From: Sphingomonas telluris | Lineage (GTDB): Bacteria > Pseudomonadota > Alphaproteobacteria > Sphingomonadales > Sphingomonadaceae | Assembly: GCF_022568775.1 (NCBI RefSeq) | Contig: NZ_JAKZHW010000002.1 | Coordinates: 818,829 to 882,828 of the forward strand | DNA length: 64,000 nucleotides | Direction of reading: 5' to 3' | Shown here: positions 25,969 through 62,528 of the stretch, in pieces | Layout of the letters: each line of letters opens with the position of its first letter | Position numbering within the stretch: the first letter of the stretch is position 1 | Translations under genes and position numbers: made by a program | The notes under the pieces: model-generated | Seen by the model: only the letters and a program-made list of their open reading frames with translations | What the model was told of the DNA's origin: nothing | The model's database searches: none

Positions 25969-26126
25969 CACCAGCTACGTCATTTAAGTGCACTGAGGAG
26001 CGGCAGGGGAGAGCGAGCGTACGCTCTTTCAATGCAACCTGCCTATGCTTGCTAGTCGTATGCTGCTGCGAAGCAGACGGTGCCGGCCGTGCGAGTGTCA
26101 GACCGATCTCGGCGAGCCCATAGAAA

Positions 26127-26150
26127 AACCCCCGACCGAAGCCGGGGGTT
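26127..26150 (-). terminator. Rho-independent terminator for the acidic repeat gene
   Basis: The minus strand reads AACCCCCG-(8-base loop)-CGGGGGTT and then TTTCTATG, directly preceded by paired A's on the other strand. It lies about 90 bases after the stop of the repeat gene and is a classical stem plus U tract. Confidence 0.8.
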
Positions 26151-26195
26151 CTCCTGATCAGTTTGAAGAAGCCTGGACGACTGGCTTCTCAACTG

Positions 26196-26230
26196 TGTGG
26201 TGCGACCACATGGTCGCTGGTCGCACCACA
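26196..26230. repeat. Perfect 13-bp inverted repeat after the acidic repeat gene
   Basis: TGTGGTGCGACCA and TGGTCGCACCACA are exact complements around a 9-base loop, 10 bases past the stop codon of the repeat gene. There is no U tract. It could be a 3' stabilising hairpin of the mRNA or a protein-binding site ahead of the true terminator. Confidence 0.7.
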
Positions 26231-26239
26231 GACGGCTGA

Positions 26240-27508
26240 TCAAACGCCTTCGTCGCCCTCGTCACCCTCATTGCCCTCATTGCCCTCGTCGCCCTCGTCG
26301 CCCTCGTCGTTCTCGTCGCCCTCGTCGTTCTCGTCACCCTCGTTGCCCTCGTCGCCTTCATTGTCCTCATTGCCCTCGTCGCCCTCGTCGCCCTCGTCGC
26401 CCTCATTGCCCTCGTCGTTCTCGTCGCCCTCATCGCCCTCGTCATCCTCATCGCCCTCGTCTCCCTCGTCGTCCTCGTCGTCCTCGTCGCCCTCGTCGTT
26501 CTCGTCGCCCTCGTCGCCTTCATCGTTCTCGTCGTCCTCATCGCCCTCGTCGTTCTCATCGCCCTCGTCGTTCTCATCACCCTCGTTGCCCTCGTCACCC
26601 TCGTTGTCCTCGTCGCCTTCGTCGCCATCATTGTCCTCGTCGCCCTCGTCGCCTTCATCGTTCTCGTCGCCCTCGTCGTCCTCGTCGTTCTCGTCGCCCT
26701 CATTACCCTCGTCGTTCTCGTCGTTCTCGTCGTCCTCATCGCCCTCGTCGTTCTCGTCGTTCTCGTCGCCCTCGTCGCCCTCGTCGCCCTCGTCGCCATC
26801 TATGCCTTCATCGCCCTCATCGCCCTCGTCGTTCTCATCACCTTCATCGCCCTCGTCGCTCTCGTTGCCCTCATCGCCCTCGTTGTTCTCATCGCCTTCG
26901 TTACCCTCGTCGCCCTCATCGTTCTCGTCGTTCTCATCGCCCTCATCATTCTCGTCGTCCTCGTCGCCCTCGTCGCCCTCATCGTCCTCATCGCCCTCGT
27001 CGCCCTCATCGTTCTCGTCGTCCTCATCGCCCTCGTCGGCCTCATCGTTCTCGTCGCCTTCGTCGCTTTCGTCGCCCTCGTCGCCCTCGTCACCCTGCGC
27101 GCCCTCGTCGCCCTCGTCGCCCTCGTCGCCCTCGTCGTTCTCGTCGCCCTCGTCGTCCTCGTCGCCCTCGTCGTCCTCGTCGCCCTCGTCGTTCTCATCG
27201 TTCTCGTCGCCCTCGTCGCCCTCGTCGCCCTCGTCGTTCTCATCGCCCTCGTCGCCATCGACGCCCTCGTCGCCCTCGTCGCCCTCGTCGCCCTCGTCAT
27301 CCTCGTCGTTTTCGTCGGCCTCGTTGCCCTCGTCGTTTTCGTTACCCTCGTCGCCCTCGTCGTTCTCGTTGCCTTCGTTGCCTTCGTTGCCCTCGTCGCC
27401 TTCATCGCCTTCGTCGCCGTCGTCCGTGAAGCTGACAGGGGCAAACAGATCGTGCGATCCCAGGCTGCCCAGGATCGCTTCGACGTCTTCAATTGTCGTG
27501 CAAGCCAT
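26240..27508 (-). CDS. Acidic tripeptide-repeat protein (130 x Asp/Asn-Glu-Gly/Asn/Asp)
   Basis: A 422-residue protein. Residues 1-31 form a leader-like segment (MACTTIEDVEAILGSLGSHD, then LFAPVSF). Residues 32-421 are exactly 130 tripeptides with no phase break, ending in Val. Position 1 is Asp (about 109) or Asn (about 18). Position 2 is Glu, with three Asp and one Gln. Position 3 is Gly, Asn or Asp. About 250 of 390 repeat residues are acidic, and the whole protein lacks Lys and Arg. The ATG at 27508 has GGAG 7 bases upstream, whereas the ATG two codons earlier lies too close to that site. Codons vary synonymously (GAC/GAT, GAG/GAA, GGC/GGT, AAC/AAT), which supports selection on the protein. 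Neighbours encode peptidase-like, exporter and oxygenase-like proteins. Function unknown. Confidence 0.8.
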   Translation of the reverse strand: MACTTIEDVEAILGSLGSHDLFAPVSFTDDGDEGDEGDEGNEGNEGNENDEGDEGNENDEGNEADENDEDDEGDEGDEGDEGVDGDEGDENDEGDEGDEGDENDENDEGDEDDEGDEDDEGDENDEGDEGDEGDEGAQGDEGDEGDESDEGDENDEADEGDEDDENDEGDEGDEDDEGDEGDEDDENDEGDENDENDEGDEGNEGDENNEGDEGNESDEGDEGDENDEGDEGDEGIDGDEGDEGDEGDENDENDEGDEDDENDENDEGNEGDENDEDDEGDENDEGDEGDEDNDGDEGDEDNEGDEGNEGDENDEGDENDEGDEDDENDEGDEGDENDEGDEDDEDDEGDEGDEDDEGDEGDENDEGNEGDEGDEGDEGNEDNEGDEGNEGDENDEGDENDEGDEGDEGNEGNEGDEGDEGV

Positions 27509-27873
27509 CACCATTCTCCGATTCTTTGCGCGCCGCGGCGAAGCTGCCGATGACGCGCAGGTTTACGGGTTTGTAGAGAAAGGCCGACCTACGATGGGCC
27601 ATGCCCCTTTGGCACGAGCAAACAGCTCCCCGAGGGAGCAGCCTACTGTTGGCGATCAGCTCGCGACGCCAGTTGTTGACACCCAGGGGGTCGAACAACG
27701 TTTAACGGGTCGTTAACACTTCACGCCCGGGTGGCCCAATACTCCTCTAGGCTGCCGGTTCCAAGTGCCCCAGCAGGAAAATTGCTCGCGCCGGCTTGCC
27801 TCGCAATTGCTCCCCCCTGACTGATTCGGTGAGCCGATGGTCGGATCAGCGGCGCTGAAGGTGAAGCCGCGGA
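27509..27873. other. Regulatory region upstream of the acidic repeat gene
   Basis: This 365-base gap carries no convincing gene. It contains a CtrA-type motif at 27702-27716 and is less GC-rich than its surroundings. Short frames on the minus strand that overlap the repeat gene start look spurious. Confidence 0.5.
27702..27716. promoter_or_regulatory. CtrA-type box (TTAA-N7-TTAA)
   Basis: TTAA-CGGGTCG-TTAA matches the alphaproteobacterial CtrA recognition pattern TTAA-N7-TTAA and is also a 15-base palindrome (TTAACG-GGT-CGTTAA). It lies about 194 bases upstream of the acidic repeat gene start and about 160 bases beyond the end of the peptidase gene. Confidence 0.5.
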
Positions 27874-28635
27874 CTAACTTTGAGGAAAGCGCAACTCCCG
27901 CAAAACGTCGTTCAAGGACGACTTTCCCTGAAAGATGCTCCAGATGCAGTCTTGTGAGCACTGGTCTGCGATCTGGAGCGCCAGGTACCGAGCGATGGGA
28001 TAATTCCAGGCGTATTTATAGGGCGTATCGGATGATGAAAGGGCCGCTTGCAGACCTTCTTTCAGGACTCCGAAATGTCGATGGTTGGCCTTATCCCAGG
28101 CCTGGACCAGATGCGTATACTGCGTTCGATGTCTGCGCCCGGCGTGGGACAAGAGCGCGCCTTCACCCAGAAATGCGCAGATTTCACGGATGATTGGCGG
28201 AACGAATGTTCCCTGACTTGCTACGATTTGCACCGCATGCGCAAACTCATGCGCAATAGTGAGTTCGTCGATCGGCTTGCTACGATAGCTGTAAACGATC
28301 GTCGGATAAGCCCCTGATCCATTGTCCAGCGTCAGCGCTTTGCGAGGCTTATCAGGGTCGTCCACGACAATCTTGGCGGAGTTCTCGAAAGTGTCGTCGA
28401 CGATTCTTTGCTGCTCGGGCAGGAAATCGCGCATTGCCTCAACGGCTCTTAGCCAAGCGACCTCCGGGTCAATGATCTGATATTCTTCCAACTCGTCGTC
28501 GCTGGGTGGTGCAGCGTTCTCTAACGCCATGGCATCGAGAATGCGCCGGCAAGTTACCGGATCAAGCTCGTGCAGGGCGAGCCAGTCCGACAGACTATGC
28601 CGGCTGCTTTGCGAGTCAGCGGCACGATTGGGCAT
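27874..28635 (-). CDS. Putative zinc metallopeptidase (HEFAH), cytoplasmic
   Basis: About 253 residues. The zincin motif DELTIAHEFAHAVQI has HEFAH at about residues 129-133, followed by a likely glutamate ligand in REICAFLGEGALLSHA (about 151 or 158), a gluzincin-like spacing. There is no signal peptide. The N-terminal 60 residues are polar. It is transcribed in the same direction as the repeat gene, about 365 bases upstream of it, so it could mature or degrade the repeat polypeptide (inference). The start is uncertain; an ATG at 28668 is also in frame. Confidence 0.65.
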   Translation of the reverse strand: MPNRAADSQSSRHSLSDWLALHELDPVTCRRILDAMALENAAPPSDDELEEYQIIDPEVAWLRAVEAMRDFLPEQQRIVDDTFENSAKIVVDDPDKPRKALTLDNGSGAYPTIVYSYRSKPIDELTIAHEFAHAVQIVASQGTFVPPIIREICAFLGEGALLSHAGRRHRTQYTHLVQAWDKANHRHFGVLKEGLQAALSSSDTPYKYAWNYPIARYLALQIADQCSQDCIWSIFQGKSSLNDVLRELRFPQS

Positions 28636-28769
28636 CGTCCGAACTGTCCATAACTGGCGTAGCTGCAACCATGGTGGGCCTCGGCAGTAGCCTTCTGAGC
28701 GGATGGCGAATTAGGTGAGAAAGATCTCCACCCGTCGCTTCGCCCATGTGGGCTTCACCGCAATACCTC

Positions 28770-29109: not shown

Positions 29110-30801
29110 CTATCCACCTTGGATAGCAACGACCTTTCCGTCAGCCTTCGCATTGATCTCCATCTCCTTGAGACTGCCGTCGCTCAATACGAAGCTCCGG
29201 GTTGGACGGTACGACCTCAGCGCGATGCGAGTGAGCATTATCAGAATGCCTCCGCGCGCAAGGAAGCCGTTGATCTCGTCTTTCAAGTTTTTGGAAAGCG
29301 CCTCTCTTAAGCTCGTGTCGGGTTCATCGATGATCAAAACCCTCGGCTTCGTATAGAGCGCCCGGGCCAAGGCGAGCATGTGACGTTCGCTCTTGGAGAA
29401 CCGACTGCCGAGCGCATCGACGCGCGTATCGTACCCCTCAGGAAAAGAGAGAATCTTTTCATGCACTTGCGCGACGCGCGCCGCATGCACGAGACTTGAC
29501 CTGTCGAGTTTATCCTCCAGTCCGGCGATGTTTTCTTCTATTGTCCCGGGGACGAAGGAGACATGCTGCGGGACATAGCCAATCGTCCTGGCTGCATCTG
29601 TGATCGACAATCGCCCCAATTCGATGGCGCCAATTGAAACCTTGCCGGCGCTGGGCGCGAAGCGGCCGATCAACGTCTCAGCGAACACAGTTTTGCCGGC
29701 GGCGGCGCCTCCGACGATCTGAACCGATGAACCCGGTTCGATGTCGATGCTAACGTTGCGCAGAAGCTTGTTCTTAGTGAGAGGACAGCGAACGGTGACC
29801 TGTGACAGGCGCAAGGCTGCCATTCCGTCTAGGACTGCAGTCGGGGCTTCCGCTGCGCTCAAGGCCTTGTCGAGGCTTCTCCAATTTTCGCGTGCTTCGC
29901 GAATGCTGGGCAGCTGCTTAAGGAAACGCTCCGTCGCATAGGCGATGCGACGGCTCAGGACCATGGCCGCGACCATAGCTCCAACAGTCAATTCACCCTC
30001 GATCGTCAGATACGCGGCGGCCGCAAGCGCCAGATATTGGAGCATGAGGACTGTGTGCGACGACAGGGCTGTAAACCATCCTGTGAAGTCCTTGTGTTCG
30101 ATCGCCGTGTCGCGGGACGAGCGTCGCGCCGATAGCCACCGTTTGTTGAAGGCGGCTGTCATCTGCTGAGACTCGATCAGATGACGCGACACAGACAGCG
30201 TGTTCTTTAGGTCGCCTATGCGGTCGCTTGCTTCGCTGTGCCGCTCTTCGCGCGCCTTCGAGAAATGCACCTTGGAGAGATTGATAAGCACCAGAAGCGC
30301 AAGACCGGCGACGTCGATCCATCCGATGAATGGGCTGATAATGAACACCACCCCGAGGAAAACCGGAGACCACATGAAATCGAGGATGGCGACCAACGAC
30401 CCGGAGTGAAAAAACGAGCGCAGCCCATCCGCCTCGTTTAATCCCGCGGCTGGCTTGTTACCGCTTCTCGCGAAGTATGTGTCGCGGGCCGTGGATCTAA
30501 AGATGTGCTCCTCGATCCGCTCTTGAAACTGAGCGCCGAACCGGGCCAAAACCCGTCGCCGCGAATAGTCCAGCAGCGCCATGATCGTCAGAATGATGAC
30601 CAGAATTATGACCAAGGACACCAGGGTGGCTTCAGACTGGGCGGGCAGGACCCGGTCGAAAACGAGGATCATGAAGAGCGGCCCGGCCAGCCTCAGCAGG
30701 CCATAGACAAGGCTGATCCCAACAGAAAAGAAGAGGATCGAGCGGAGACTGATCAAAGTGTCTCGCAGCACGGTTGCTCGTACCTTACCGGCCAAATGCA
30801 C
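29110..30801 (-). CDS. Type I secretion ABC transporter with degenerate ATPase motifs
   Basis: A 563-residue PrtD-like permease-ATPase without a C39 peptidase domain. About six transmembrane helices lie in residues 25-285 (GPLFMILVFDRVLPAQSEAT). In the nucleotide-binding domain Walker A is GGAAAGKT (364-371), the Q loop is GYVPQHVSF (Q412) and Walker B is VLIIDE (488-493). The signature LSGGQ is replaced by FSKSE (468-472), and no His stands at the H-loop position (IMLTRIAL). It probably pairs with the HlyD-type protein across the divergent promoter region. No TolC-type partner is adjacent. The degenerate motifs suggest weak or asymmetric ATPase activity, or a specialised function. Confidence 0.85.
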   Translation of the reverse strand: MHLAGKVRATVLRDTLISLRSILFFSVGISLVYGLLRLAGPLFMILVFDRVLPAQSEATLVSLVIILVIILTIMALLDYSRRRVLARFGAQFQERIEEHIFRSTARDTYFARSGNKPAAGLNEADGLRSFFHSGSLVAILDFMWSPVFLGVVFIISPFIGWIDVAGLALLVLINLSKVHFSKAREERHSEASDRIGDLKNTLSVSRHLIESQQMTAAFNKRWLSARRSSRDTAIEHKDFTGWFTALSSHTVLMLQYLALAAAAYLTIEGELTVGAMVAAMVLSRRIAYATERFLKQLPSIREARENWRSLDKALSAAEAPTAVLDGMAALRLSQVTVRCPLTKNKLLRNVSIDIEPGSSVQIVGGAAAGKTVFAETLIGRFAPSAGKVSIGAIELGRLSITDAARTIGYVPQHVSFVPGTIEENIAGLEDKLDRSSLVHAARVAQVHEKILSFPEGYDTRVDALGSRFSKSERHMLALARALYTKPRVLIIDEPDTSLREALSKNLKDEINGFLARGGILIMLTRIALRSYRPTRSFVLSDGSLKEMEINAKADGKVVAIQGG

Positions 30802-30836
30802 GCTCCACTTACATCAAATACCCCGACGAGTGGGAG

Positions 30837-31523
30837 TCACTTCTTAACTTGGTTTATGTTGAAAGACACGATTACGCGGTCACCCGCGCGGCCGCTTTTC
30901 TTCGATAAATTGGGGTCGACGCCATGATAGAGCCAAGCCGGGAAGATCAGCATTCGCCCGGCTACCGGTTTGTAGGTGACCTTGGTCCAACAATCACGCG
31001 GCCGCTTCTTCTTCTCCTCGTACTTGGGCTGATTCATGATCAGAACCGTTCGAGGATCGATGAATTCGATCTTGCCGCCGCTGTCGGACGCCTGGACGTA
31101 GTACACACCGCTCCAAAGACTGTTCGGATGAATGTGAGCGCGGTTACCGTTGCCCGGAGGATTGATGATGGACCACATGGAAGTCACTCTAAGGACTTGA
31201 TGCGAAGCGTAACTCAAATCCTCAGATATGCGTCCCAGTGCGGCATTGACCTCCGTCAGGAGTGGCTCATAGGCTGGGTTCTTGTGCAATCCTGTCGCGC
31301 TGTGCCAACTGCCAAGAGCGGCCGTGTTTGACTTGTTGACGGCAACTCCCTGCTCTCGCTCGGCATAGACCAGCTCGAGAAGGGTCTTGTTGAGTTGCTC
31401 GCTGTCTTCGATGTCATATTGGAAGATCATCGTCGGGAAATAATTTTTCCGGACGAAGCGATCGGGGTCGGTAACCGCCGATCGTGCCTTGCTTGTCACC
31501 TCAGATTCTGAATCGGCTGGCAT
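30837..31523 (-). CDS. 2OG-Fe(II) oxygenase-like protein
   Basis: A 228-residue protein resembling the TIGR02466/2OG-FeII_Oxy_5 group. It has FPTMIFQYDIEDSEQLNKTL near the N-terminus, the SMWSIINPPGNGNRAHIHPN block with HIH at 130-132, SGVYYVQA, and the distal pair in FPAWLYHGVDPN (His200) and DRVIVSFNINQ (Arg216). Such enzymes hydroxylate substrates with 2-oxoglutarate, Fe(II) and O2. The ATG at 31523 has GGAG 6 bases upstream, so it is preferred to the ATG at 31580. Located between the exporter ATPase and the divergent HlyD gene, it is a candidate modifier of the Asp/Asn-rich repeat protein (inference). Confidence 0.75.
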   Translation of the reverse strand: MPADSESEVTSKARSAVTDPDRFVRKNYFPTMIFQYDIEDSEQLNKTLLELVYAEREQGVAVNKSNTAALGSWHSATGLHKNPAYEPLLTEVNAALGRISEDLSYASHQVLRVTSMWSIINPPGNGNRAHIHPNSLWSGVYYVQASDSGGKIEFIDPRTVLIMNQPKYEEKKKRPRDCWTKVTYKPVAGRMLIFPAWLYHGVDPNLSKKSGRAGDRVIVSFNINQVKK

Positions 31524-31883
31524 GAGGCACTCCATGTTTACGCATTTCCAAGCAGGACGACCGGCAAGTCCTTCCGGCAAGCCTGTAGTGATCCAGGTAT
31601 GTCGTCAAGCGGCTCAGTCGCTGGGTCGAACGACAGGATTACCCTCATTCGTTGTCGCGAGGATCGAGAGATGACACGGGCTGCCGGTAATCGCTCGCTT
31701 GGGAAAATTATGCGGTGTTGAGAGGATTGAACGCTTGAATCGCATGAGGACTCAAGACAATTCTAAAGTAATGCGCTTGTTCCACTCTCACCTGAACGTT
31801 CGATGAGGAGAGATGTATTGGATTCGAGCCACACGTCGGCCAAGCACGACCCGGTCATCTCATCGAGGCAAAGGAAGATCGGC

Positions 31884-33221
31884 ATGAAGCACGAGCTTGA
31901 CGTCACCACCTTGCTTCGGAGTAGCGGCAACCGTCGCTCATCGACGATCCAAAAGCCGCTGAACGTCGGCCTGGCCGCATTGATCGGACTGTTCGGCCTT
32001 GTCTTCGTCTGGGCTGTAACCTTCAATATATCGGGCGCCATCATCGGCAAGGGCCAGGTTCAAGCATCGACCAACCGCATCGCAGTGCAGCATCCGATCG
32101 GCGGCGTGGTTGCGGAGATCCTCGCGAACAACGGCGATCGGGTGAAAAGCGGAAGCGTCCTCGTACGCCTTGAAGATTCATCGCTTCGTTCAGACCTCGC
32201 CGCAGTCGAAAGCGAGTTGTTCGAACTCCTCGCGAATGAGGCCCGGTTGGAGGCCGAACTGAACGACCGCAGTACGCTGTCGCTCGACCCGATCTTGCAA
32301 GAGGCCGTTGCGAGCAATCCTGGGCTCAGGTCGCTCCTGGACGAGCAACAGCGGCAACTGCAGGCTAGCCGAGGATCATTGTTTACCGAAGTCTCCGTCC
32401 TTCAGGAGCAAAGGAAACAGATCGCGGACGAGGCTCGCGGCGTCGAGGCCGCCCTTGCTGCGAAACGGGAAGAGATAGCGCTTCTGAGCAGCGACGTTGC
32501 TCGGGCGCAGGAGAGCCTCAAGAGAGGATACACAACAGTCACCGTCCTATCGGGCTTCCAGCGGGAATTGGCCAAGGCGAAGGGCGAAGCCGGCACTCTG
32601 GCGGCGAAGCGTGCCGAACTGAATGGAAAGCTGGCCGAACAACGGCTCAAGACGCATGCATCACCCTTGGATCTGAGGATGCTGAGTGCGGACAAACTCA
32701 ACCTGTCCAAACAGCAGTCGAAGAAACTCATAGAGACCAGAAACGGGCTACTCTACAAGTTGGGCAAGCTGGATGTCAGAGCTCCAGTGAGCGGAATGGT
32801 CTTCGATTCCAAGGTGCTTGGCCCCCGATCCGTGATCGAGGCGGCCAAACCGATCATGTACATCGTTCCCGACACTAAGCCGAACCTGGTCGTGGTGCGC
32901 GTCGACGCGAGGGACATAGAGCAGGTCCACGTCGGACAGCCTGCTGGGCTTCGATTTACGACGTTCAACAAGCGCTCGACACCGATCATTGACGGCCGTG
33001 TGACCGCCGTATCGGCAGACGCCTTCGTCGACGAAAAGACGCAGAAGCCGTACTACTTTGTCGACGTGCGGCTGATCGACAGCGAGATGAAAAAGTTGGG
33101 CAAGGTCGAGCTCATACCGGGGATGCCGGTAGAAGCCTTCCTACAGACCGAAGGCCGTACCCCGGCCAGCTATGTCACTAGACCGATAACGGATTTCTTC
33201 TCCAGAGCCTTCAGAGACTAA
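31884..33221 (+). CDS. HlyD-family type I secretion membrane fusion protein
   Basis: About 445 residues (PrtE/HlyD type). A short cytoplasmic N-terminus is followed by one transmembrane helix (about residues 28-47), a lipoyl-like half (VQHPIGGVVAEILANNGDRV), long coiled-coil hairpins (residues about 95-270), the second lipoyl half and beta-barrel (LDVRAPVSGMVFDSKVLGPR), and the family end SYVTRPITDFFSRAFRD. An AGGAAG site 6 bases before the ATG at 31884 favours it over the in-frame ATG at 31803, which lacks one. It is divergent from the oxygenase and ABC genes. It would join the inner-membrane ABC protein to an outer-membrane channel encoded elsewhere. Confidence 0.88.
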   Translation: MKHELDVTTLLRSSGNRRSSTIQKPLNVGLAALIGLFGLVFVWAVTFNISGAIIGKGQVQASTNRIAVQHPIGGVVAEILANNGDRVKSGSVLVRLEDSSLRSDLAAVESELFELLANEARLEAELNDRSTLSLDPILQEAVASNPGLRSLLDEQQRQLQASRGSLFTEVSVLQEQRKQIADEARGVEAALAAKREEIALLSSDVARAQESLKRGYTTVTVLSGFQRELAKAKGEAGTLAAKRAELNGKLAEQRLKTHASPLDLRMLSADKLNLSKQQSKKLIETRNGLLYKLGKLDVRAPVSGMVFDSKVLGPRSVIEAAKPIMYIVPDTKPNLVVVRVDARDIEQVHVGQPAGLRFTTFNKRSTPIIDGRVTAVSADAFVDEKTQKPYYFVDVRLIDSEMKKLGKVELIPGMPVEAFLQTEGRTPASYVTRPITDFFSRAFRD

Positions 33222-41852: not shown

Positions 41853-41919
41853 GATGGCAGCAATGGGTCGAAAGCTGCCACTACGCTAATGGCAAGAATG
41901 GGTCGAAAGCTGCCATTAG
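41853..41919. repeat. Tandem pair of palindromic repeats
   Basis: GGCAGCAATGGGTCGAAAGC (then TGCCACTACGCTAAT) and GGCAAGAATGGGTCGAAAGC (then TGCCATTAG) are two near-identical units in direct orientation, between convergent genes. Confidence 0.75.
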
Positions 41920-53007: not shown

Positions 53008-54174
53008 GTGGAGCGAGCCTTGGACCTCTCGAAAGTCAGTGAACGCGAGGCACTCAAAGCCCGCCGTGAGCCTTACTGGCAGCGCCTCCGCCCTGGGTGT
53101 TTTGTCGGGTATCGGCCGGCGGCCAAAGGGGGCGCTGGAACGTGGATTGCTCGCGCCTATGACGAGGAAGCGCGTCGTTACCAGCTCAAAGCGCTCGGCA
53201 GCTTTGGCGAGGCCGTGGCCCGCGACCGCTTCACCCTCGCCAAGCAGGCTGCAGAGGCCTTCGCCGCCAAGGTCGAGGGCGGCTCAGTCAATAACACGAA
53301 AATCGAGACCGTAGAGGATGCGTGCCGCGAGTTCGCTAAGCACAACACGGAGGCCGCCGGCCGCTTCCGAAGATATGTCTACGCAGACCCGATCGCGAAG
53401 GTGAAGCTGGAAAAGCTCCGGCGCTCCAACGTGGCGGCATGGCGGAGGCGGCTGGAGACAACGCCCGCGCTGGTATCCCGCCGCAACACCGGCGAGCCCC
53501 TTACGCGCGACCGATCGCCGGCCACCCTTAACCGCGATATGGCCGTCCTGCGTACCGCGCTAGGCCGCGTCCTGCCGTTGGGCACTCCCAACACCGAAGC
53601 CGCGTGGCAAGAGCCTCTGAAGCCCGTCAAGAACGCCGTAAAGCGCCGGACGCTCTATCTCAACCGCGACCAGCGCAAGGCGCTCGTGGCGGCGGTTCCG
53701 AGCGAGGCACAAGGCTTTGTGCGTACCCTCTGCTTGCTGCCGCTTCGTCCAGGCGCTGCCGCTGCCTTGACAGTCGCCGATTTCGATAAGCGCACGAGCG
53801 AACTGACGATCGGCAAAGACAAGACCGGCAATCGCCGCAGAATTGTCGTTCCGGATGTAGCGGCCAACCTTTTCGCCAACGCGGCCCAGGGCAAATTACC
53901 GGGAGCTCCGCTCTTTATGCGCGCCAATGGCAAGGCGTGGGACAAGGAAACGTGGAACGACCCGATTGCACACGCAGCTAAGGCTGCGAAGCTGCCGGCT
54001 GCTGTTACGGCCTATACGCTTCGTCATAGTACGATCACGGATCTGGTGAGCGCGGGGCTGCCTCTCCTCACTGTGGCGCAAATCAGCGGCACAAGCGCTG
54101 AGATGATCGAGAAGCACTACGGTCACCTGGTTCGCGATGCGGCTGTAGAGGCGCTCGCGGGGCTGGCGGTATGA
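53008..54174 (+). CDS. Tyrosine recombinase/integrase
   Basis: A 388-residue phage-type integrase. The N-terminal arm and SAM-like domain (TVEDACREFAKHNTEAAGRF) precede the catalytic domain. The first Arg is in TLCLLPLRPGAAAALTVADF, a Lys in IGKDKTGNRRRIVVP, and the Arg-His in VTAYTLRHSTITDLVSAGLP. The nucleophile is Tyr in MIEKHYGHL. The usual first His of HxxR is Tyr here, as in some alphaproteobacterial members. It sits beside the structural-RNA fragment and should drive integration there. A GTG start at 53008 is used. Confidence 0.92.
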   Translation: MERALDLSKVSEREALKARREPYWQRLRPGCFVGYRPAAKGGAGTWIARAYDEEARRYQLKALGSFGEAVARDRFTLAKQAAEAFAAKVEGGSVNNTKIETVEDACREFAKHNTEAAGRFRRYVYADPIAKVKLEKLRRSNVAAWRRRLETTPALVSRRNTGEPLTRDRSPATLNRDMAVLRTALGRVLPLGTPNTEAAWQEPLKPVKNAVKRRTLYLNRDQRKALVAAVPSEAQGFVRTLCLLPLRPGAAAALTVADFDKRTSELTIGKDKTGNRRRIVVPDVAANLFANAAQGKLPGAPLFMRANGKAWDKETWNDPIAHAAKAAKLPAAVTAYTLRHSTITDLVSAGLPLLTVAQISGTSAEMIEKHYGHLVRDAAVEALAGLAV

Positions 54175-62426: not shown

Positions 62427-62450
62427 GCAGATCCTGTGCAGCGCCGTCGG

Positions 62451-62492
62451 AGTGTCCGCAATGGGTGGAAAGCAGACACTACGCTAATGCCC
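62451..62492. repeat. Palindromic repeat copy
   Basis: AGTGTCCGCAATGGGTGGAA followed by AGCAGACACTACG shows the GTGTC/GACAC stem of the second half type. Confidence 0.65.
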
Positions 62493-62528
62493 GCCATGGC
62501 TGCAAAGCGTCCCTCCGTTGCGCTTGGT

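Follow-up and report, generated by a model that had tools for sequence, protein, structure and literature searches.

A phased acidic tripeptide array protein under purifying selection in Sphingomonas telluris, with a predicted role in metal binding

Proteins built from acidic simple repeats are already known, and the tripeptide array described here is real, selected and rare. In Paracoccus denitrificans, BapA is an Asp-Ala repeat biofilm protein of 2,211 residues served by the type I secretion system bapBCD, and its acidic simple repeat is encoded beside that system and used for calcium-stimulated attachment (PMC5588039). Among acid-rich disordered proteins, AGARP is reported to collapse on Ca2+ or Mg2+ (PMC12557392). 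A third point of comparison is provided by the collagen-like families Scl, Lcl and PF01391, which share with the present array a three-residue phase and have Gly as the commonest residue at one position.

We analyzed a window of 64,000 nucleotides from Sphingomonas telluris (the whole stretch at positions 818,829 to 882,828 of contig NZ_JAKZHW010000002.1) that encodes such an array. Similarly to BapA (PMC5588039), the window protein is alphaproteobacterial and consists over most of its length of an extremely acidic simple repeat. The window copy of its gene has type I genes nearby, at 1.6 to 5.7 kb; none is named beside a second copy of the gene, a paralog, in the same genome. BapA is an Asp-Ala dipeptide protein of 2,211 residues with divergent N and C termini, whereas the window protein is a [D/N]E[G/N/D] tripeptide protein of 422 residues that has no Asp-Ala repeats and no C-terminal domain, only a 30-residue leader. 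With AGARP and aspein it shares an Asp/Glu-dominated chain, predicted disorder and an expected response to divalent cations, although these are animal mineral-associated proteins and the window protein is bacterial (PMC12557392; aspein via PMC5588039). Unlike the collagen-like proteins, the window array lacks Gly in 35 percent of its units and is without Pro, Lys or Arg. We know of no strict three-residue phase in AGARP or aspein.

The gene and its parts are as follows.

27508 to 26240, minus strand: gene for the acidic tripeptide protein, 422 aa (ORF list and translation; array dN/dS against the paralog)
27516..27519, minus strand: GGAG, likely Shine-Dalgarno sequence, 7 bases ahead of the ATG at 27508 (sequence)
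27416..27508, minus strand: 31-residue leader, MACTTIEDVEAILGSLGSHDLFAPVSFTDDG (shares 26 of its first 30 residues with the paralog)
26246..27415, minus strand: 130 phased [D/N]-E-[G/N/D] units (unit counts)

The 422 codons run from the ATG at 27508 to a TGA at 26242-26240, with a final Val (26243-26245, minus strand) after unit 130, which confirms the phase-perfect acidic tripeptide gene of a preliminary description of this DNA. An alternative ATG six bases upstream (27514) would give 424 aa; the ATG at 27508 is the better start because GGAG (27519-27516) precedes it by 7 bases. At the DNA level the array is a tandem repeat with 78-80 percent matches between copies, and its opposite strand also carries long open frames. 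An AlphaFold model has a mean pLDDT of 37, which is weak evidence on folding because the model was made from a single sequence; it places one weak helix in the leader (residues 10-18, with a block pLDDT of 54-55 for residues 1-20) and leaves the array without secondary structure, at pLDDT <50 nearly throughout. Such a low-confidence model is compatible with disorder and no proof of it.

The first position of the 130 units is D in 109, N in 18, and V, A and I in one each; the second is E in 126, D in three and Q in one; the third is G in 84, N in 27, D in 15, and A and S in two each. Our recount agrees with the preliminary description in finding the middle residue acidic in 129 units, the first Asp or Asn in 127 and the third almost always Gly, Asn or Asp (126 units), and likewise in the absence of Lys and Arg (zero in the whole protein) and in an acidic share of about 65 percent (64.5 percent of repeat residues); Asp and Glu together account for 259 of the 422 residues. 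Rare units fall at VDG 18, AQG 36, IDG 69 and also NDG 88 in the window copy, and at positions 22, 40, 67, 85 and 101 in the paralog. The larger period once suggested for them did not hold up, since the unit-lag autocorrelation stays within unit-shuffle limits in both copies. At base level it peaks at 0.811 (lag 69) in the window copy and 0.786 (lag 70) in the paralog over unit lags 1-79, with 95 percent shuffle-maximum limits, computed over lags 1-60, of 0.817 and 0.792, respectively.

The paralog, which encodes 394 residues, is intact and in phase and lies on another contig of the same genome (3.03 Mb in three contigs). Its rare landmark units occur in the same order as those of the window copy, and the two proteins end in ...DEADVA (paralog) and ...DEGV (window copy). 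Across 115 aligned unit pairs, in an alignment scored on DNA and protein that rewards rare-unit matches, the copies show 76 synonymous and 41 non-synonymous codon differences, with 29, 24 and 90 base differences at codon positions 1, 2 and 3. The array dN/dS between the copies is 0.093 in a protein alignment and 0.138 in a DNA-only alignment, which gives no advantage to the reading frame, against 200 neutral simulations that averaged 0.52 and never fell below 0.32. The four internal gaps of the DNA-only alignment (9, 9, 27 and 63 bases) are all whole units, multiples of 9 nt. For the leader, dN/dS is 0.136, a value drawn from just seven synonymous and four non-synonymous changes.

The kinds of change between units point the same way. 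G-to-A changes at the first base that turn D into N are found in 18 of 127 units of the window copy and 17 of 117 of the paralog, whereas those that would turn E into K are found in 0 of 126 and 0 of 115; the p-values of this contrast (4e-6 and 8e-6) overstate independence because the units are related by duplication. Read in the opposite-strand Pro/Ser frame that has the same third positions, dN/dS is higher than in the Asp/Glu frame, at 0.256 and 0.336. Moreover, transversions, counted by hand from the 115-unit-pair alignment, number 1 of 53 at Asp/Glu third positions versus 4 of 16 at Gly (Fisher p 0.009), and fourfold-degenerate codons on the opposite strand would allow transversions that the Asp/Glu frame forbids. 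From the dN/dS values, the absence of E-to-K changes, the opposite-frame ratio and the rarity of transversions it therefore follows that the coding strand is the minus strand and that purifying selection acts on the protein pattern of the array, which is a real gene.

To place the array among genomes, we searched with array and leader queries. The array query matched two of the 71 genus genomes at E<=1e-6, its own and the MAG G091 (JAUJOV01, Sphingomicrobium sp. YX3bin28, of the same genus), and its own alone among sampled genomes of the family (1 of 397, E<=1e-12) and of the class (1 of 385, E<=1e-8), E limits that would let shorter arrays escape. A laxer query of leader plus array (E<=0.01, 61 genomes) also matched G004, G024 and G059, which we rejected as array carriers; what matched there is, by eye, a tail rich in RGD, a collagen-like GPQG stretch and a repeat of another kind. 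The leader query found its own genome twice, the MAG once convincingly, and five weak matches in four other genomes (E 0.07 to 1.13); none of the four frames read in the matching strand among these five is an array, and the array query had no match in any of those four genomes. Against 5.8 billion proteins, leader residues 1-45 gave 203 candidates, none at E<=10. Among viral contigs none of 60 pattern matches was a relative, and a tblastn search of plasmids and phages gave no match, with a low-complexity filter on that makes this result say little about the array.

The MAG carries arrays on three contigs (C81, C82 and C60), all ending in the same 3' region. The C82 array is cut by the contig start, and those of C81 and C60 are broken by frame shifts, C60 also having some stop codons; there is an insertion in the leader at C81, and the start at C60 is unlike the leader. 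On the C81 contig a class I tRNA synthetase gene and rpoA are likewise split over several frames, so that assembly error is the likelier cause of the broken C81 array, and the frame breaks in the MAG arrays are likely to reflect such error rather than real decay. Frame-breaking indels, which the preliminary description had named as evidence against the array, are in this formal sense present in the MAG, but assembly error explains them better and the paralog in the array's own genome is intact and in phase.

The array genes share more than their coding sequence, as the flanking features indicate.

27509..27713, minus strand: conserved upstream region, likely promoter and 5' UTR (alignment with the paralog and the MAG)
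27702..27716, no strand assigned: TTAA-N7-TTAA, a CtrA-like site (the only match in the window, 0.08 expected)
26156..26241, minus strand: predicted three-way RNA junction (fold of 26118-26242, z -6.6)
26122..26155, minus strand: intrinsic-terminator-like hairpin and T run (fold; homologous sequence at four other loci)

Over about 200 bases the upstream region shares 84 percent identity with that of the paralog and 74 percent with that of the MAG. In 22 other genomes of the genus there were short upstream matches only (19 to 36 bases among the matches listed, E 3e-4 to 0.01), which are taken as chance. A promoter scan found nothing; the TTAA-N7-TTAA site lies at the upstream edge of the conserved region and is absent at both other copies aligned (the paralog and C81). 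Downstream, the predicted junction comprises a closing stem, which in the window copy starts inside the stop codon, a 13-pair hairpin and a 10-pair hairpin. The sequence of this 3' element is homologous at five array loci in two species, with fold z-scores for the 3' region of -6.6 (window), -6.3 (paralog), -5.9 (C82), -3.9 (C60) and -2.1 (C81). In minimum-energy folds the first hairpin forms at all five loci, the terminator hairpin at four (C81 folds otherwise) and the closing stem in the window and C82 copies only. RNAalifold found double changes in just 2 of 32 pairs, with a slightly unfavorable covariation term; covariation being weak, the 3' fold rests on energy more than on covariation. 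A terminator scan did not pick up the 3' hairpin, the three Rfam matches for the element were all under threshold, and in six other genus genomes the 3' region has short matches, 26 to 47 bases long and for the most part falling on the terminator hairpin.

Beyond this unit the copies lie in different surroundings. The DNA flanks of the two copies in the same genome have no match beyond the unit itself over about 2 to 4 kb per side, and comparing them with the flanks of the MAG copies gave no common protein match, with short dispersed intergenic repeats only. One such repeat, common to both species, occurs at 62435-62509 and 41854-41917 of the window and at L009:8522-8578, L018:7407-7468 and L071:3938-4018; the same repeat also occurs near array genes, at a distance of about 0.3 kb for the paralog and 2.6 kb for one MAG array. 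A phage-type integrase gene at 53008-54174 hints at a possible mobile island close to the end of the contig.

Genes with a potential bearing on export lie beside the window copy.

29110..30801, minus strand: PrtD-like type I secretion ABC transporter, a candidate exporter (TIGR01842, 360 bits, under the cut-off of 510)
31803..33221, plus strand: HlyD-type periplasmic adaptor, divergent (TIGR01843, 294 bits, over the cut-off of 209)
30837-31580, minus strand: TIGR02466 oxygenase (family search)
27874-28668, minus strand: HExxH protein, between the ABC transporter and the array gene

On the minus strand the order is TIGR02466 oxygenase, ABC transporter, HExxH protein and array gene. There is an HExxH gene on each side of the transporter cluster (29110-33221), and the two encoded proteins have no significant similarity to each other. 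The ABC gene was matched only in its own genome among the 71 of the genus (E<=1e-60). HlyD adaptors score over the cut-off in 61 of these genomes, so other type I systems are common, and because arrays are present in two of the 71 the co-occurrence of HlyD and array tells little. The oxygenase was considered as a modifier of array Asp/Asn and rejected, with relatives in 67 of the 71 genomes. The paralog is flanked by BrkB and TPR genes, with EF-G also near, and no type I gene was named beside it in the ORF list or among four neighbors searched against families; the C81 array lies near RpoA and S13 genes, and the window's transporter genes had no match among the ORFs in stretches of 20, 12 and 6 kb surrounding the MAG arrays. 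Export by the neighboring transporter is thus a possibility suggested by the window copy only.

Relatives of the protein pattern were sought in protein databases. A full-length search gave 18 low-complexity matches among the best 7,986 candidates. The longest strict [D/N]E[G/N/D/S/A] run among the 18 has 24 units and belongs to a protein with Ig/cadherin-like domains (P0002); six of the 18 resemble the window in that their longest run includes N or D at third places. Phased runs of this kind, with N or D at some third places, are found in P0001, P0002, P0003, P0008, P0011 and P0014; these are unrelated proteins with runs of <=24 units, whereas the window has 42 under the same strict pattern (units 89-130) and 130 in phase. 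P0008 and P0014 belong to a small family whose members share a conserved domain of about 150 residues at the N terminus; both combine an ELSxxEAAAIxGG-like motif with an acidic tripeptide array at the C terminus. In eight other relatives of P0008 this domain comes with no array. Among 385 class genomes the GG-type N-terminal part of P0014 had no match, a result that for want of a positive control shows nothing by itself. In line with the earlier remark that nothing of this architecture had been described, the searches made found no close described relative, and no title or abstract opening among the papers listed by the literature searches describes this repeat. RTX proteins, which are marked by GGxGxDxUx nonapeptide repeats, were rejected as a class for the window protein, as a Pfam scan (E<=1) returned no RTX family and Gly is confined to the third unit position, never occurring at positions 1 or 2.

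We tentatively propose, at a little less than an even chance, that the array is a disordered polyanion under purifying selection that would bind Ca2+, Mg2+ or other divalent cations all along the chain and be exported, possibly by the adjacent type I system, to the cell surface or the biofilm matrix. Metal binding is the most plausible role predicted for the protein. A chain so rich in acidic residues and devoid of Lys and Arg can hardly fold alone, and its disorder is accordingly a prediction that the low-confidence model allows; the density of carboxylates suggests cation binding and, by analogy with AGARP, the protein should bind and collapse on divalent cations. Export is suggested by the type I ABC and HlyD genes within 5.7 kb. 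As the one sizeable stretch outside the repeat, and a conserved one, the leader may serve for targeting or docking. A matrix or adhesion role would be in keeping with the analogy to Paracoccus BapA.

The main rival to the export reading is the same polymer inside the cell, where a disordered polyanion could buffer cations or, mimicking nucleic acid, compete for basic proteins, the nearby transporter being coincidental. We consider this possible, if rather doubtful. Neither copy has a Sec signal or classical type I C-terminal tail visible by eye, and the other copies sit near unrelated genes (BrkB, TPR and EF-G; RpoA and S13 in the MAG) and carry their own homologous upstream and 3' regions, all of which would suit a cytoplasmic protein; however, a rare ABC gene stands beside a rare array gene, and some other acidic-array proteins have Ig/cadherin-like domains (P0002) or a GG motif ahead of it. 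A GACGAGGGC DNA repeat that is selfish or drifting, open by chance and without protein function, would account for the tandem DNA with its 78-80 percent matches and long other-strand frames, for the lack of a find in 69 of 71 genus genomes and for the frame breaks in two of the three MAG arrays. It is made very unlikely by the codon-position bias, by a dN/dS far under the neutral simulations, by D-to-N being common and E-to-K never seen, by the conserved leader, upstream and 3' regions, by the higher ratio of the opposite-strand Pro/Ser frame and by the rarity of transversions where the Asp/Glu frame forbids them.

Two further readings concern what the protein is made into. That it gives rise to short acidic peptides through cleavage or modification after the leader, as in GG-leader peptides, in which GG, GA or GS is the conserved cleavage pair and a hydrophobic residue stands at -4, is slightly less probable still. 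The predicted leader helix is followed by two Gly-Ser pairs, and a GG motif precedes such an array in three unrelated database proteins (P0003, P0008 and P0014), but pair 14-15 is GR in the paralog, the pair kept in both copies (17-18) has Ser/Arg at -4, the array shows no recurrent cleavage residue by eye, and the genome has no match to the C39 peptidase family (PF03412), which is matched in 8 of 14 control genomes. The modified or cleaved peptide of the preliminary description is weakly supported at best, by the kept Gly-Ser pair, and the missing C39 peptidase speaks against it. Least probable is a bacterial collagen-like triple helix or a three-residue-per-turn helix bundle, even though collagen is the only kind of family named for the protein: Pfam PF01391 scores 67.3, over its cut-off of 27.2 (E 1e-18), NCBIfam Scl2 and Lcl reach 72 and 60, under their cut-offs of 325 and 500, and PDB collagens match with E down to 2e-50. 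Yet Gly, which collagen has at every third residue, occupies the third position in 84 of 130 units and is missing from 46 (35 percent), its longest unbroken run is seven triplets (mean 2.5), the array has no Pro, and all-acidic chains would repel each other; Gly spacing alone is the likely explanation of the collagen scores.

A bolder form of the polyanion proposal, which we regard as unlikely, is that a self-contained dispersed Sphingomicrobium unit, made up of upstream region, leader, array, folded RNA at the stop codon and terminator, encodes a new class of polyanion. Selection would hold the three-residue register so that Glu, Asp/Asn and small residues each line a face of their own on a chain with three residues per turn, which divalent ions might zip into an ordered, non-collagen surface fiber.

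Simple acidic repeats are usually dismissed as low-complexity noise; here the presence of two diverged copies in the same genome allows a direct test. What is selected over some 130 units is a central Glu, a first Asp or Asn and a small third residue, and never Lys. The array unit occurs, together with a folded 3' region, at unrelated sites in two species of one genus. It offers a clean natural model in which to study how ion binding and chain shape depend on the pattern of charges, and the protein may be a genetically encoded cation-responsive polymer.
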